DNA of 64,000 nt from Gottfriedia acidiceleris. GTDB taxonomy: Bacteria; Bacillota; Bacilli; Bacillales; Bacillaceae_G. The DNA is taken from contig NZ_CP096034.1 of assembly GCF_023115465.1 (NCBI RefSeq), forward strand, positions 2,046,001 through 2,110,000. Direction: 5' to 3'. Shown piece by piece: positions 12,835 to 63,730 of this stretch. The notes under the pieces were generated by a model. The model was not told the origin of the DNA. It saw only the letters and a list, made by a program, of their open reading frames with translations, and ran no database searches. The stretch's first letter is position 1. The number at the start of each line of letters is the position of its first letter. Made by a program: the position numbers and the translations under genes.

Positions 12835-12930
12835 TATAATAAAATTAATAAAAAGGGTGATGGAGTTCACCTTTAACCGCTAAGGACTCCTGCTAGTACA
12901 TTTTACTGGCAGGAGTCCTCGTTTTTTTTA
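12835..12930 (+). promoter_or_regulatory. Fluoride-riboswitch-like (crcB) leader with terminator
   Basis: After a TATAAT box (12835 to 12840) comes GGTGATGGAGTTCACC (12856 to 12871), the hallmark first hairpin of the crcB fluoride riboswitch. Its GGAGT (12862 to 12866) can form the pseudoknot with ACTCC at 12886 to 12890. The same ACTCC strand is the 5' arm of a 15-bp terminator (12884 to 12918) followed by eight T, so ligand binding would stop termination. The usual small P3 hairpin between them seems to be missing. The gene controlled is a MATE pump. Assignment rests on my recall of the B. cereus crcB leader. Confidence 0.6.
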
Positions 12931-12972
12931 GGATTTAAGCTGGGATCGTACTACTAAGACAAGGTGGTCAAT

Positions 12973-14298
12973 GTGAAAATAAATTCTTATTCAAAAACAC
13001 TTTTGATTTTAGCCATTCCAGCCATTACCGAGAGTCTTCTTCAGAGTATGGTTGGATTTGTTGATACCTTTTTTGTATCGAAAATAGGTTTAAAAGAAGT
13101 AGCAGCAGTAGGTATTTCGAATGCGATTCTTCAAATTTATTTTGCTGTATTTCTAGCAATTGGAACGGCTTCGACTGTATTTGTTTCCCGTTATTACGGG
13201 GCGAATGATAAAGAAAAAGTAAAAACCATCGCTTCACAATCAATGATTTTAACACTTTTTGTTGGAGCGTTCTTTGGAGTAATCTCATTTTTCTTTTCTG
13301 TTCCAATCTTGAAAGTGATGGGTGCAGATAAGGACGTATTAGAAATTGGTTCAGTGTACTTTCGAATCGTTGCAACCCCATCGATTTTAATGTCAATGAT
13401 GTTTACCATTGGGGCAATTTTAAGGGGATCAGGTGATACAAGGACCCCTATGCGTGTAGGGGTTTCGATGAATGTTGTTCATATGATTTTGGATTATCTC
13501 TTGATTTTTGGTGTATTTTTTGAAGGGTTTGGAATTAGGGGAGCAGCTTTATCCAGTGTACTCGCACGATTGTTTGGTGTCATTTTATTACTCCGCCAAT
13601 TATTAAAAAAAGAAATCATTTCTCGAAATCTGAAAGAATGGAAAATGAAACTAGATGTGATTCAAGATTTAGTGAAATTAGGATTACCTGCATCAATTGA
13701 ACGTTTATTTATGCGTTTTGGACAAATTATTTACTTTGGTATGATTATCCGAATGGGAACAGAAGTTTACGCAGCCCATACATTGGCAGGAAATTTTACG
13801 ATCTTTGCGTCGGTTATTGGAACGGGTTTTGCCGTTGCAACAACCACGTTAGTCGGAAAAAGCATTGGCTCAGGACAAATTGAAAATGCAAGGAAATATA
13901 GTCAGTCATCAATAACTTTAATGTCTCTATCCATGACCATAACACTCTTCATCACATGTTTGCTTTCTTCTCAAATCAGTCCAATCTTCACAACTGATAG
14001 TGAGGTCATTGGTTTGATTACGACTGTTCTTGTCATTGATATGATTACTCAACCCGCAACTGCGGTTGTTGCTTCTTTGACAGCAACATTGCAAGCTGGC
14101 GGGGATACTAAGTTTCCGATGTATATGACAGCAATTGGTATATGGGCTATTCGCACAGTAGGGGTTTATTTACTAGGAGTTTACTTTGGATTTGGACTTG
14201 TTGGGGTTTGGATTTCGATTGCGATAGATAATTATTTACGAGCAATATTATTATTTTTACGCTATCGTTCTTTTAAATGGATTAAAAGTTTAGAATAG
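12973..14298 (+). CDS. MATE-family cation/drug antiporter
   Basis: 441 residues, 12 predicted helices arranged as two MatE halves. The N-terminal half shows PAITESLLQSMVGFVDTFFV and the conserved GSGDTRTPM; the second half shows the matching AGGDTKFPM. Start taken as GTG 12973 with AAGGTGG 5 nt upstream; GTG 12964 would lie inside that ribosome site. The transcript passes through the riboswitch-like leader at 12850 to 12930. The exported compound is unknown. If the leader really senses fluoride, the substrate question becomes interesting. Confidence 0.85.
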   Translation: MKINSYSKTLLILAIPAITESLLQSMVGFVDTFFVSKIGLKEVAAVGISNAILQIYFAVFLAIGTASTVFVSRYYGANDKEKVKTIASQSMILTLFVGAFFGVISFFFSVPILKVMGADKDVLEIGSVYFRIVATPSILMSMMFTIGAILRGSGDTRTPMRVGVSMNVVHMILDYLLIFGVFFEGFGIRGAALSSVLARLFGVILLLRQLLKKEIISRNLKEWKMKLDVIQDLVKLGLPASIERLFMRFGQIIYFGMIIRMGTEVYAAHTLAGNFTIFASVIGTGFAVATTTLVGKSIGSGQIENARKYSQSSITLMSLSMTITLFITCLLSSQISPIFTTDSEVIGLITTVLVIDMITQPATAVVASLTATLQAGGDTKFPMYMTAIGIWAIRTVGVYLLGVYFGFGLVGVWISIAIDNYLRAILLFLRYRSFKWIKSLE

Positions 14299-18864: not shown

Positions 18865-19380
18865 ATGAAAAAGATAATAGTAGGTTCAACACTTGTTGCA
18901 TTAATGGCTTTTGGGGGAAATGCTTTTGCAGCTAGTCCAACTGAAGTGAAATCTGTGAATACTGCAACTTCTGCGTCGAAAACAATGAGTATGGAAGATT
19001 GTATGGAAATGATGAAAGCTATGGGTATGAGTGAGAAAGATTGCATGAAAATGATGAAAGACTGCATGGCTATGGGTATCAGTGCGGAAGATTGCATGAA
19101 AATGATGAAAGATTGCATGGCTATGGGTATGAGTGCGAAGGATTGCATGAAAATGATGAAAGACTGTATGGCTATGGGTATGAGTGCGGACGATTGCGTG
19201 AAAATGATGAAAGACTGTATGGCTATGGGCATGAGTGAGAAAGATTGCATGAAAATGATGAAAGACTGCATGGCTATGGGTATGAGTGCGGAAGACTGCA
19301 TGAAAATGATGAAAGATTGCATGGATATGGGTATGAGTGCAAAAGATTGTATGAAAATGATGAAAAACATGCAAAAATAA
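18865..19380 (+). CDS. Secreted Met/Cys-rich repeat protein (putative Cu(I) binder)
   Basis: 171 residues. The first 22 are a classical signal peptide ending AFA. After a short linker, residues 41 to 171 consist of eight units, six of them full 17-mers, of the form MSxxDCMKMMKDCMAMG; there are 14 Cys and about five Met per unit. Such thioether and thiol spacing suits many Cu(I) ions in the cell wall space. I know no named family with this repeat. GAGGAG precedes the ATG. It sits behind a promoter with BlaI-type dyads, so the BlaI/M56 pair probably controls it. Confidence 0.75.
   Translation: MKKIIVGSTLVALMAFGGNAFAASPTEVKSVNTATSASKTMSMEDCMEMMKAMGMSEKDCMKMMKDCMAMGISAEDCMKMMKDCMAMGMSAKDCMKMMKDCMAMGMSADDCVKMMKDCMAMGMSEKDCMKMMKDCMAMGMSAEDCMKMMKDCMDMGMSAKDCMKMMKNMQK
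19021..19360 (+). repeat. Tandem 51-bp coding repeats
   Basis: DNA-level tandem repeats, about 6.7 units of 51 bp, coding for the 17-residue Met/Cys units. Copies differ mainly at the two residues before each DC pair, so unit number may vary between strains. Confidence 0.85.
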
Positions 19381-27672: not shown

Positions 27673-29072
27673 TCAAATTTCCAAACAGTCTTCTATTTTC
27701 ATCAAATCATGTAAAAAAAAGTCCTCTTTTTTATGACAATTAACCGAATAAAATAAATCTAACACAGAGGGATTCTCAAGTTTATGAAATATATGTGCCT
27801 GTGAAAATCCTAAAACATTTTTATCTTTAATTAGTAATTTTAAATGTTCTTTTTCTTTTCCGAAATATTGAGATGATGCTATTTTGGTTGCATTACTTTT
27901 AAAAATTGGTTTTGGCATACCCATTCCATAAGGTTCTAAAATAGGTAAATCAGACATCAATTCTATAGGAAATGTGTTGATTGGAATATTACTGATATAA
28001 AATTGTTGTGGTGTACAAATTTGTTGTTTTGTCGCTTCTTTTTGTATGTTTGTACGAAATAAATTAACCTGTTTATCAGTTAAACTAATTGAAAATCCAG
28101 CAGCCATTGGATGTCCACCGAATTTCTTCAATAAATTTTCACAACCAGAAATACAATTAATAATTGAAAATTGACTTCCCTGTAAACTTCTTGCAGATCC
28201 AGTACCGTCACTTGATATAACAATTGTTGGTTTTTTGTAATAGTTAGAAGCTCTGGAGGCAAGAATCCCTATAATCCCTTTGTGAAAATCTCCGTTTATC
28301 ACTAAAACGTCATCGTTTAGTAAATTTTCACTCTGTATTTTTTCTTGAATCGTCAAGAATTGTTCTGCTGTTACTTTTTTTCGTTTGTCATTTAATGCAA
28401 TTAGTTGATCAATTTCTTCATTAGTTGGATCAGTAGAACGTAGAATGGCAGCAGCAAAATTTGGGTCTCCAATTCGTCCGCACGCATTAAAAATCGGACC
28501 CAAAGTAAAGCCAAATGTTGAACTATCAACTGTTTTAATCCTTAATTTATCTATTATTTTTTTGAATGCAGGATGAGGATGATTTTTTATTTTTCGTAAT
28601 CCGTGCCAACAGATAATTCGGTTTTCTCCAATTAATGGCACGACATCTGCAATTGTTCCTAAAGTTGCTAAGTCGAAAAATTTAAAAGATTCACCAATCC
28701 ATTCTCTTTTTAACTTAAGATAAATAGCTTGTACTAGCTTTAATGCAACCCCTGCTCCACATAAGTGAGGATTCGGATAGTGGTTGTCAATACGTTTGGG
28801 ATTGATAAAAGCCAAACAATTAGGTCTCCCATTTAATACTTCGTGATGATCAGTGACAATCACATCAATTCCTTTTATTTTCGCTGCTTTTAAAGCATCA
28901 TGTGCACTTGACCCATTATCAACTGTAATAATCAATGAATAAGATTTTGAAAGGCTGTTAACTATTTCCTTTGATAATCCGTAACCCTCTGTTCTTAAAG
29001 GTAATCGTGTGTCTACATGCCCACCCAATTCAAATAAAGCCTGGCTTAATATAGTCGAAGAAGTCATCCCAT
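27673..29072 (-). CDS. recJ: recJ-like exonuclease, second exon
   Basis: C-terminal 466 residues of a RecJ-type single-strand-specific 5'-3' exonuclease. GMTSSTILSQALFELGG begins right after the intron; IITVDNGSS, VTDHHE, AGVALKLVQA, GTIADVVPL and FGGHPMAAGFS are DHH/DHHA1 motifs. Joined with exon 1 (29950 to 30223) the frame is continuous across GAT TGC G|AT GGG and gives 557 residues, close to E. coli RecJ (577) and shorter than B. subtilis RecJ. Reading the intron as coding would add a false N-terminus to about 29124. No separate start codon with a ribosome site exists, so function depends on splicing. Confidence 0.85.
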
Positions 29073-29949
29073 ATAGTGATAGGTAAGCCTTTGATATGAC
29101 TCTCTGGCTTTTCCCCCACTCCACACCGTACGTGACAGTTTCCCGTCATACGGCGTTCCATCGATAGCATAGTAAGATATATTAATCTACACAGCTTTAC
29201 AAGTTTGAACTTGGCATAGTCATCGTCCCTTTATAATTATGAAACGTCCTCTTAGTCTTGCTCGAAACTATGATTGAAATGTTTTATTTTGCTGTGTACT
29301 TATTTACTACTATACAACCGACTCGAGCCTATCCCTCCACAGCTTATTATCACTGCTTCATAGGTACTGTGGCTCTACTTTCACTCAGACTAACCAACTT
29401 ATAGCAAATCGCCTTTCGTTTGGACTGTTTCATAGGTGGTTATACCTCCACATCCTGAGCTTCCCACGTTCCAATTACCTTTATCCGTTCTATATGCCCT
29501 TAGATTTCTTCTATAGTCCTGCATGCTTGACTCTGCCAGTAACAGAGTATGGATTTTCATAACTGCGGATTTTTACTCATCCACACATGCGATAGCTTTG
29601 CTACCTATTACATTTCTGTAATATCTATGTTTAGACCTGTACATTCGAAGATTCGTCAGTGGATTACTCCACATTCTAATCATAGGCAATTTATAGGACT
29701 CCCAGTCTATAGGATACACCATCCACCTCTGGACAGCTTTCGTGTGACATATAGGCAGTCACTTACGGTATCTCTCAACTGACTTCACCGAGCTTCACAC
29801 TAAGGACTTTATAACCAAAGCCTAAAGCATGTCGGAGTATCAGAGGAAGCATTTCAAGGCGTTACCCTATCATTCTACTTCTAAGATTATCAGTTCTCCA
29901 TTAACCATTGTTAATGTGCCTAAACTTTTCATTTAGGGACGTGTCGCAC
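29073..29949 (-). mobile_element. ORF-less group II intron in recJ
   Basis: 877 nt on the recJ sense strand. The 5' end is GTGCGAC (consensus GUGYG) at 29949; the 3' end is CACTAT (consensus AY) at 29073. Domain V is evident at 29121 to 29159, and the A at 29080, eight nt from the 3' end, is a candidate branch point. No reverse transcriptase frame is present. The exon flank ATTGCG can pair with CGCAGT inside the intron (plus strand 29562 to 29567), a candidate EBS1. Exact removal restores GDYDCDGMTSST, the RecJ motif I. Confidence 0.88.
29121..29159 (-). ncRNA. Group II intron domain V
   Basis: On the minus strand GGAACGCCGTATGACG, GGAAAC loop region, then TGTCACGTACGGTGTGG: a 34-nt type hairpin with the CGC form of the catalytic triad and the GNAAA-type tetraloop area, as in many bacterial introns. 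Confidence 0.85.
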
Positions 29950-30223
29950 CGCAATCATAGTCTCCAAATACTAGAATCTGTTCTTGTCGTGCAATAGCTT
30001 GTAAGATTCGAGGGACTGCAATACTCATTTCATCTAGTAAAAATGGATGATGCATCGAATCAAGAGAAGGAATGAGAAAGTCTCCTAGTATTTTAGATGT
30101 ATTTATCCCTAAATGGAATAAATGTTGGGTAATGATTGGGTGAAGACAATATTGTGATGAGAGGTAGCGAATCATTGCAAATTCTGTTTCATCGTCAATT
30201 GGCTTGATTTTATTCCAATTCAT
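29950..30223 (-). CDS. recJ: recJ-like exonuclease, first exon
   Basis: 91 codons plus one base. It holds the N-terminal cap (from MNWNKIKP) and ends VFGDYDC just before the intron. ATG 30223 has GGAGG 9 nt upstream. Without splicing the ribosome would read a few intron codons (GATRP) and stop at 29933, leaving a useless peptide. It is the only start for the split gene. Confidence 0.85.
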
Positions 30224-61800: not shown

Positions 61801-63369
61801 TTAACTTTCGTTGAAGTTTAATAAATTGATTAGCTGATTTTTATTCACTACTTGAAACAACAATGGAATAGGTGGTCCACTTGTTCTATTTAAAACAAGC
61901 TGATAAATCATTGTGAAAAAAGTTTTTTGATTTGCTTTCATTATTTTTTTATCTTCATGATAACAAATCGCATATAATTCTTTCATTAATTCAGTTTGAT
62001 CTAGGGCCTCATTATTTAATAGATAGCTACATAAATTTTTCAGCCAAAATTTCTGACCTTCAGTTAAAGAGTGATAAAATCCAATACCTTGTTTTTCGTT
62101 TATCATGCTATTTTTTTGTGGATTGTATTTTTTAATCCAATATTCTGCCATAAGACTAATTTTCTCTATTTCAATGGATGAGTAATTTTCTCCATTATTA
62201 ACAAATATGTCTTTTAATAAATCTACATTGTAATTAATGAGAGGCAGAACGTTAGCTACATGATTAAATTTTGGATATTTTTTATCAATTTTGCCAATAT
62301 GTGCAAATTCGACCGATTGGCAAATATCTAAATAGTGTAAAGATTGATCAATATAATTTGATTGATACCGTTCAAATTCTGAATAGTTTTTAATCACATC
62401 TTCATCTAGACCAATATTAAATGCTGCTGTTGGTTTATATTTAGCAAACATAAAGAGAATCACTTCTGGTAAATAGATTTCCAATAACTCAGCAGGTGTT
62501 ATTAAATTACCAGTGGAGCTCGACATTTTTTGGTTTTGACCTTTTATTCCAATAAACTCATACGGTGTATAATGAGGTGCATCATAGTCAAATATGGCTT
62601 TAGCAATTTCTTTTGAAACATTGTAACTACCGGTTTCAGATGAATGATCTCTTCCACCAGGTTCAAATACAACGTCTTCTTTCATCCACCTCATAGCCCA
62701 ATCAAATTTCCATTTTAATTTAATATTGTCTGCAACTTCTACAGATAATTGATTTGAAAATCCACAGCGACAAGTATAATGTAAAGTTTTGCTTTCCTTA
62801 TTATATTGGGTTATTGAAGGATCATCTTTCTCGCAATTTTCACAGTAAAGAGTAATAGGGTAAAAATCATTACGTTCTTGTTCATTTGGCATGCTTGTTT
62901 TGAACTTCATTAAAATATTATAAATTTCTTTTCTTTTCTCAATAGCATGTATTATGTCTTCATTGTATCTACCAGATTTGTATTCTTTACTTTGATAAAT
63001 AAACTCAACCTCAATGCCTAGTTCACATAAGGAATTTTCAAATTCTGTTTCAAAGTGTTCAGCGTATGTTGAGTGACAGCCATATGGATCAGGAATATTT
63101 GAATAAGCTTTCCCTATAAAACGATGATAAGTTGGATCAATTTTATTCGGGACCTTCCTAAAACGATCAAAATCATCCCAAGAAAAGATAAATCTTGTTT
63201 TCTTACCTAAATTATTTAAAGCTTTCACAACAAAATAAGTTGTAATGATCTCACGAAAATTTCCAATATGAACCGACCCCGATGGACTTATGCCAGATGC
63301 ACATACATAAGTTTCTTTATTTGGATATTTTTCAATTAATTCATTTGCGATTTTAATTGCCCAATGCAT
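61801..63369 (-). CDS. lysK: Class I lysyl-tRNA synthetase
   Basis: 522 residues. ASGISPSGSVHIGN holds the HIGH-type motif (H34-I-G-N) and QKMSSSTGN is the KMSKS motif, both of class I LysRS, unrelated to the usual class II LysS. A zinc-ribbon-like CENCEKDD with CRCGF lies between. ATG 63369 follows GAGGTGA. Bacilli such as B. cereus carry it as a second LysRS beside class II; whether LysS exists here is not visible. A T-box leader regulates it. Confidence 0.93.
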   Translation of the reverse strand: MHWAIKIANELIEKYPNKETYVCASGISPSGSVHIGNFREIITTYFVVKALNNLGKKTRFIFSWDDFDRFRKVPNKIDPTYHRFIGKAYSNIPDPYGCHSTYAEHFETEFENSLCELGIEVEFIYQSKEYKSGRYNEDIIHAIEKRKEIYNILMKFKTSMPNEQERNDFYPITLYCENCEKDDPSITQYNKESKTLHYTCRCGFSNQLSVEVADNIKLKWKFDWAMRWMKEDVVFEPGGRDHSSETGSYNVSKEIAKAIFDYDAPHYTPYEFIGIKGQNQKMSSSTGNLITPAELLEIYLPEVILFMFAKYKPTAAFNIGLDEDVIKNYSEFERYQSNYIDQSLHYLDICQSVEFAHIGKIDKKYPKFNHVANVLPLINYNVDLLKDIFVNNGENYSSIEIEKISLMAEYWIKKYNPQKNSMINEKQGIGFYHSLTEGQKFWLKNLCSYLLNNEALDQTELMKELYAICYHEDKKIMKANQKTFFTMIYQLVLNRTSGPPIPLLFQVVNKNQLINLLNFNES

Positions 63370-63399: not shown

Positions 63400-63700
63400 T
63401 CAAATTGCAAATAAAAAAACTCCCACCCCCAAGATTTAATCATCTTGAGGACGAGAGTTTGTTAACTTCGTGGTACCACCCCAGTTTATTGATATGTTAC
63501 CATACCAACCTCATTTAGGTACGGCACGAATGCTTATACCCTATCTCTATAACGGGAGAACCCGGCGTACCATCCCTAAAGTGAACTTTAGTTCCATACG
63601 AAGCTCCAAGTCTTTTTACATAAAGTTCATTATTACTCCTTTTTCAGCAAACAGGAGCTCTCTGTAAATAATTTTAGCTTTACTACTTTTCTCTTCATAG
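63400..63700 (-). promoter_or_regulatory. T-box leader of lysK
   Basis: The minus strand carries the T-box core GGGGTGGTACCACGAA (plus 63467 to 63482), whose GG pairs with uncharged tRNA acceptor ends. Next comes a terminator (plus 63412 to 63463: ACTCTCGTCCTCAAGAT with its complement, then TTTTTTT), which the T-box can disrupt. Upstream lies the AGAGAGCTCC stem I region. The specifier codon, expected AAA or AAG, was not assigned with certainty. Confidence 0.88.
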
Positions 63701-63730
63701 CTTTTAAATTTCGAAATATTAATTGTTATT

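Follow-up and report, generated by a model that had tools for sequence, protein, structure and literature searches.

An ORF-less group II intron in the metal-binding motif of an accessory recJ gene of Gottfriedia acidiceleris and its kin in replication and repair genes of Bacillales

An accessory recJ gene of Gottfriedia acidiceleris is interrupted, in the last Asp codon of its GDYDxD metal-binding motif, by a group II intron of 877 nt which carries no reverse transcriptase (RT) ORF. The stretch of DNA analysed, called here the window, covers 64,000 nucleotides (positions 2,046,001 to 2,110,000 of contig NZ_CP096034.1, assembly GCF_023115465.1), and coordinates refer to it unless a genome position or a locus is named. 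The account as a whole is considered highly probable: the intron would have entered by retrohoming, RecJ would be restored by splicing of the mRNA, a maturase would act in trans, and the intron would belong to a group often found in motif codons.

The intron, read directly from the sequence, occupies positions 29073-29949 of the minus strand and has GTGCG...CTAT ends (start GTGCGACACG and end CCTATCACTAT, from 29949 down to 29073). It separates a recJ-type exon 1 (29950-30223, minus strand), which has its ATG at 30223 and ends one base into the codon for the last Asp of GDYDxD, from a recJ-type exon 2 (27673-29072, minus strand) assigned by domain matches and by the empty-site alignment described below. 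Exon 1 closes with ..GACTATGATTGCG and exon 2 opens with ATGGGATGACTTC, giving ..GATTGCG|ATGGGATG.. as the predicted spliced junction. After removal of the intron, a single frame of 557 amino acids with GDYDCDGMTSST is obtained. With cmscan at gathering thresholds, two Rfam models were matched over their whole length on the minus strand: RF02004 (group-II-D1D4-5; 180.8 bits for a threshold of 34.5) in the 5' ribozyme part at 29898-29691, and RF00029 (62.1 bits for a threshold of 40) in domains V and VI at 29158-29073. No RT-sized ORF was found among the four ORFs of at least 40 amino acids lying wholly within the intron (48-77 amino acids); the longest, of 77 amino acids, is on the opposite strand. 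Only 191 nt separate intron nucleotide 600 from domain V, the end of domain III being counted. The first-pass annotation, made from the letters alone, had proposed an ORF-less group II intron with these boundaries and a domain V, a frame kept on exact removal and a recJ-type host cut in its catalytic motif; the covariance models, the lack of an RT-sized ORF, the boundaries to the base, the 557-residue frame and the DHH-family domains with a restored GDYDxDG confirm it on each of these points.

Other structural properties are in agreement with this assignment. The ends conform to the 5' GUGYG and 3' AY of group II introns and are fixed by the empty site of a congener (G002). The folding of the intron gives z = -3.42 relative to 20 shuffles, and over the first 640 nt of 14 introns a consensus of 155 predicted pairs was obtained, 108 of which have at least one compensatory change. 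The A at 29080 (minus strand), bulged in domain VI as judged by eye and 8th base from the 3' end, is the predicted branch point by analogy with group II biology.

Exon recognition could be followed by taking as EBS1 the six bases ahead of the [TC]ATGAA that is conserved in domain I. For the window intron this gives CGCAGT (29562-29567, minus strand), which pairs 6/6, with one G-U, with IBS1 ATTGCG, the final six bases of the exon (29950-29955, minus strand); among 1669 exon hexamers this EBS1 has 2 full matches, IBS1 itself being one of them. EBS2 CATAG (29625-29629, minus strand) is complementary to IBS2 CTATG (29956-29960, minus strand) at 5/5 positions, a pairing found by eye. In 15 introns, own EBS1-IBS1 pairs reach a mean of 5.8/6 (12 introns at 6 and three at 5), whereas crossed pairs average 3.09; a value as high was found in 0/20000 permutations, with five pcrA rows that are non-independent and a register picked after seeing the alignment; the 11 other offsets score 2.1-3.1. 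EBS1 was scored in these 15 introns and then in 16 of 18, as two pcrA introns of genome G152 lack the anchor. For the RT-bearing intron of the window genome, the start was shifted by one base after reading of the sequence, before the EBS1 scoring. The recJ introns of the window and of G152 each reach 6/6 with differing exons (ATTGCG-CGCAGT and ACGCAG-CTGCGT, respectively).

The interrupted gene is an accessory RecJ paralog located near arsenic genes. Exon 2 contains the DHH, DHHA1 and RecJ OB domains (PF01368, PF02272 and PF17768) and by itself scores 354.6 with TIGR00644, under the cut-off of 396.9; the GDYDxDG motif is restored when the exons are joined, the intron cutting the last Asp codon as G|AT. 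The housekeeping recJ was rejected as host, a separate and uninterrupted long RecJ being found in 13/13 genomes of the genus (open frames of 785-796 amino acids), including the window genome with 796 amino acids. Exon 2 is 33-35% identical to the long RecJs of its genus, and the short recJ-type gene is present in 2/13 of these genomes. The first-pass annotation made nuclease activity depend on splicing aided by a maturase made elsewhere; because a separate uninterrupted long RecJ exists, this does not apply to the whole cell, whose RecJ activity need not rely on splicing. The six nearest recJ relatives, from named Bacillales (L015-L020), are 42-52% identical with an intact GDYDxDG, and the stretches fetched around them gave no group II match. 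RecJ relatives in plasmid and phage records are all less than 60% identical (161/161 and 162/162 matching records, respectively). Carriage of the intron by recorded plasmids or phages was also considered and rejected: 0/367 matching plasmid records and 0/13 matching phage records have one place covering 80% of the intron, in a test where an RT ORF between the intron halves can stop the pieces from being joined.

Around the gene lie arsenic genes, among them matches to plasmid genes annotated as arsA and arsC, together with genes for a Y-family polymerase and a serine recombinase. The region may be an integrative element. Promoter and terminator scans remained at chance level (13 for 13.4 expected and 1 for 1.4 expected, respectively). 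Elsewhere in the window, a T-box leader at 63444-63707 lies upstream of ORF 61801-63369, presumably a class I lysyl-tRNA synthetase from the look of its sequence, and a fluoride riboswitch (12847-12899) directly precedes a transporter ORF (12964-14298) which we assume to be MATE-like. At 18865-19380, a 51-nt direct repeat (reported as seven overlapping 147-nt copies) is contained in an ORF of Met/Cys/Asp-rich repeats (MKDCMAMGMS).

The empty site was found in the congener G002, in which the relative of the gene is uninterrupted and the last base of exon 1 (locus 2883) is followed without gap by the first base of exon 2 (2882). The joined window gene is 90.3% identical to it over 1662 nt; exon 1 is 92.3% identical at the nucleotide level and exon 2 is 92% identical at the protein level. 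The dN/dS ratio between the two genes is 0.097, a value in which much of the substitution may predate the insertion. With L015 as outgroup, 23 synonymous and 4 replacement changes fall on the window branch and 18 and 7, respectively, on the G002 branch. Over its 11.3 kb, the G002 contig shares with the window only the gene and the sequence just upstream (E 1e-10); the arsenic genes of the window are therefore absent from it.

A search for an intron-encoded protein, proposed in the first-pass annotation, returned one RT in the window genome, which belongs to a related intron at a distance of about 62 kb. This ORF of 600 residues (L011:2799-4601) is the single RVT_1 match of the genome and scores 334.6 bits with TIGR04416 (cut-off 300); the intron that contains it spans L011:2043-4745, which corresponds to 2.138-2.141 Mb of the genome. 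In the RT tree it shares a clade (100/99) with those of G307, G108 and the virD4 intron of G313. In the tree of 16 introns, the RNAs nearest to the window intron after the recJ intron of G152 are those of G307, the virD4 intron of G313 and G108. A clade of all 11 kin RTs is supported at 100/99 and joins the single class B reference at 58/89. The same genome has an apparently chimeric intron (L011:11925-13177): its 5' half matches RF02001, another RNA class, whereas in its 3' half it is similar to the end of the RT gene and to domain V of the nearby full intron.

Domain IV of the window intron contains an 18-base motif, TTCGAGCAAGACTAAGAG (29249-29266, minus strand), which agrees at 17/18 positions with a motif that precedes the RT start codon of kin introns; 0/2000 shuffles equalled it. 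From its position, this motif would correspond to DIVa, which binds the maturase. The motif, defined after seeing the alignments, is present at 12-18 of 18 positions in the RT-bearing introns (n=11), including 14/18 in that of the window genome, and is kept in the ORF-less introns of G228 (17/18) and G249 (16/18). It is absent in the four ORF-less introns of G152, whose 10-12/18 is the chance level. The window intron would thus likely need a maturase made elsewhere in the genome. Two points on specificity weigh against the match with the RT found: alignment between the RNA of the RT-bearing intron and that of the window intron is confined to short stretches (83, 29 and 22 nt), and the motif of the RT-bearing intron reaches only 14/18.

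Splicing without a cognate maturase, by self-splicing in vivo or with the aid of a general RNA chaperone or an unrelated maturase, is an alternative that we regard as somewhat unlikely for the window intron. ORF-less kin persist in the pcrA gene of G228 (on one contig) and in the pcrA and recJ genes of G152 despite RTs that fall outside the kin clade, and neither G228 nor G152 yielded another close pcrA at E 1e-30. In G152, G228 and G249 (a draft), ORF-less kin are present and the RTs found lie out of this clade, so that a close maturase may be dispensable; the one RT of G152 and two of the four RTs of G228 were placed in the tree, all outside the clade, and the other two of G228 share 32-33% identity with the RT of the window genome (BLAST). 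The lack of the DIVa-like motif in the four G152 introns agrees with the same possibility, for which a precedent was proposed, in a passage of a 2015 review, with C.te.I1 of Clostridium tetani (PMC4424553). On the other hand, the window intron retains the motif and its genome has an RT of the kin clade. Moreover, the pcrA introns of G228 and of the RT-bearing G291 differ by branches of 0.0014 each; the loss of the ORF in G228 is therefore recent and its motif (17/18) may be a leftover. Dependence on a maturase in trans is the best reading for the window intron, and maturase-independent splicing is a live option for the kin.

Intron DNA matches were obtained at E <=1e-12 in 52/397 Bacillales genomes, the window genome being counted. 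In that genome, the search for other copies recommended by the first-pass annotation gave one full copy and two partial loci, and a multi-copy intron was thus rejected, the two loci being 78% identical at nt 790-872 only. The best match beyond the window genome is an ORF-less intron of 976 nt in G152, which cuts a canonical recJ at exactly this codon. G152 belongs to another family, and this interrupted gene is the only recJ found in it; its neighbours are presumably apt- and relA-like. By exact junction patterns, the recJ insertion was detected only in G000 and G152 among 397 genomes, the pcrA insertion (DEYQD) in 6/397 and the polC insertion (PDIDL) in 8/397. As the patterns allow no mismatches and are of unequal strictness, these 2, 6 and 8 are lower bounds. 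Together they represent 15 distinct genomes of 397, and the earlier statement that sense insertions in conserved genes are rare is too strong for this group.

Pfam searches of separate exons identified the host for one copy each of PcrA (L147), PolC (L149) and a VirB4-like protein (L143); the VirD4-like match L152 has no Pfam match and is under the NCBIfam cut-off, and the remaining kin hosts were identified by translation and motif. At the junctions worked on both sides by eye (the two recJ, pcrA, polC and VirB4-like), the intron is placed after the first base of the codon. Three ORF-less introns divide pcrA of G152 into four exons; they lie in the codons that follow TFTNKA, DEYQD and ERRLAY. 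The distance between junction and domain V indicates the length of an RT-bearing intron for seven polC copies and a shorter one for G047 (about 1.3 kb). Among 18 copies, 14 are in motif codons of recJ, pcrA, polC or VirB4/VirD4-like genes and 4 are in no recognised motif (those of G307, G108, an Enterococcus mundtii plasmid and the RT-bearing intron of the window genome). Motif-codon sites are thus frequent and are not the rule, in a set which is non-random, being made of the best BLAST hits and the G152 pcrA introns. From the 15 regions fetched, three were dropped: L144, without a 5' end, and L151 and L155, with a match near domain V only.

Some neighbouring cases were noted apart from this set. 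In G152, a UvrD-family helicase gene (L176:1207-4817), which we believe to be addA-like, is cut after VGDVKQSI by a different group II intron with its own RT. In G249, an RT-bearing group II intron (L178:521-3702) is found beside pieces of a Y-family polymerase-like gene, recognised by translation only, and the kin intron of Enterococcus mundtii (L110) likewise ends at the start of an annotated Y-family polymerase gene.

In the tree of 16 introns, copies group by site: polC (100/100), pcrA motif II (99/98), VirB4/VirD4 (100/99) and the recJ pair (99/99). This grouping argues against independent insertions of similar introns at the two recJ sites, an explanation which we judge unlikely and by which a single recJ-site lineage would not exist. 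In its favour, the recJ genes are of different types (33-35% between window exon 2 and the long RecJs of its genus) and the hosts of different families; moreover, in the tree of 18 introns, where the two very divergent G152 introns omitted from the 16-row tree are added, the recJ pair is nearest by path but unsupported.

An inactivating insertion, with an intron that does not splice and an accessory recJ that is a pseudogene in this strain, could be tolerated thanks to the uninterrupted long RecJ but appears quite improbable, both exons being open, the window branch (23 synonymous/4 replacement) and the dN/dS of 0.097 speaking for constraint, the boundaries, domain V and exon pairings being intact, and the sister intron occupying the only recJ found in G152. 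Given the exact G002 empty site, the intact exon pairings and other signals, and the dN/dS, neither an assembly artefact nor the simply broken gene named by the first-pass annotation as the refuting case is likely.

In the preferred account, an ORF-less, class-B-like intron reached an accessory recJ of the arsenic-gene region, presumably by retrohoming, and came to lie in the G|AT codon of its GDYDxD motif. In splicing, the exon would be recognised through EBS1/IBS1 and EBS2/IBS2, branching would start from A29080, domain V would provide the catalysis, and the two group II transesterifications would free an mRNA coding for a restored RecJ. Splicing is likely, owing to the presence of the EBS/IBS pairings, the branch A and the domain-IV motif shared with the kin; it would most likely be assisted in trans by the sole group II maturase found in the genome, that of the related intron about 62 kb away, since the intron has no RT/maturase ORF and yet has kept this motif. 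Many members of its group reside in codons for catalytic motifs of DNA replication and repair proteins; its sister occupies the same codon of the housekeeping recJ in another Bacillales family. More tentatively, and a little short of a reading that we would favour, Bacillales would harbour site-specific intron lineages that live in active-site codons of genes for replication and repair (RecJ GDYDxD, PcrA helicase motifs, PolC PDIDLN), in the style of inteins and organellar introns. These lineages would move between homologs and paralogs with a joint change of EBS and IBS, and would repeatedly lose the RT and, in G152, also the maturase-binding motif, important genes being then spliced without a cognate maturase.

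According to passages of the 2015 review (PMC4424553), bacterial group II introns are mostly outside housekeeping genes, class B is confined to Firmicutes, and ORF-less introns are uncommon and almost always occur along with a related RT. Within one order, the kin set offers exceptions to both the avoidance of housekeeping genes and the company of a related RT. It also forms a natural series, from RT-bearing introns to ORF-less introns with the domain-IV motif and then without it, in genes where splicing should matter; with it, the step by which a mobile retroelement becomes an intron that only splices would be open to tests in bacteria. Among the matches listed for open-access PMC (titles, abstract starts and term counts), no description of intron insertions in recJ, pcrA or polC was apparent.

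Among known introns, the closest comparison is B.psf.I1, located in a plasmid DNA primase gene and listed as class B in a passage of PMC3261151, which also describes class B introns of the B. cereus group; the shared traits are the Bacillota hosts and a homing into coding genes which is presumed for the window intron. The domain V region of the window intron is 92.7% identical to that of B.psf.I1 over 55 nt, this being the one class B reference used, and the RT of B.psf.I1 is 36% identical to the window-genome RT and 32-41% to the 11 kin RTs. Unlike B.psf.I1, the window intron has no RT ORF and stops right after domain VI, whereas B.psf.I1 has a 3' extension and, in the stretch searched, no DIVa-like motif (10/18). 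A precedent for ORF deletion with trans-acting RTs is provided by Thermosynechococcus elongatus, where, as in the window, the domain-IV ORF is deleted, EBS/IBS pairing is good and candidate trans RTs are in the same genome, according to excerpts of PMC2882425. The same excerpts report in T. elongatus 17 ORF-less copies derived from one ORF deletion, few of them inside genes; by contrast, the window has one copy, in an active-site codon, with ORF-less kin at recJ, pcrA and virB4. C.te.I1 is likewise ORF-less, but the C. tetani genome is described, in the passage concerned, as without a related RT (PMC4424553), whereas the window genome has one. Phage group II introns also include ORF-less ones, for which an RT in trans was proposed (excerpt of PMC12350094). 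Protein-splicing elements are lodged in the same class of genes, an analogy without homology. A group II intron is reportedly present in recA of Geobacillus kaustophilus, again a DNA-repair gene of a Bacillales bacterium but a different gene. The window intron thus adds to the known class of ORF-less group II introns, and the set of motif-codon insertions to which it belongs is the interesting part.
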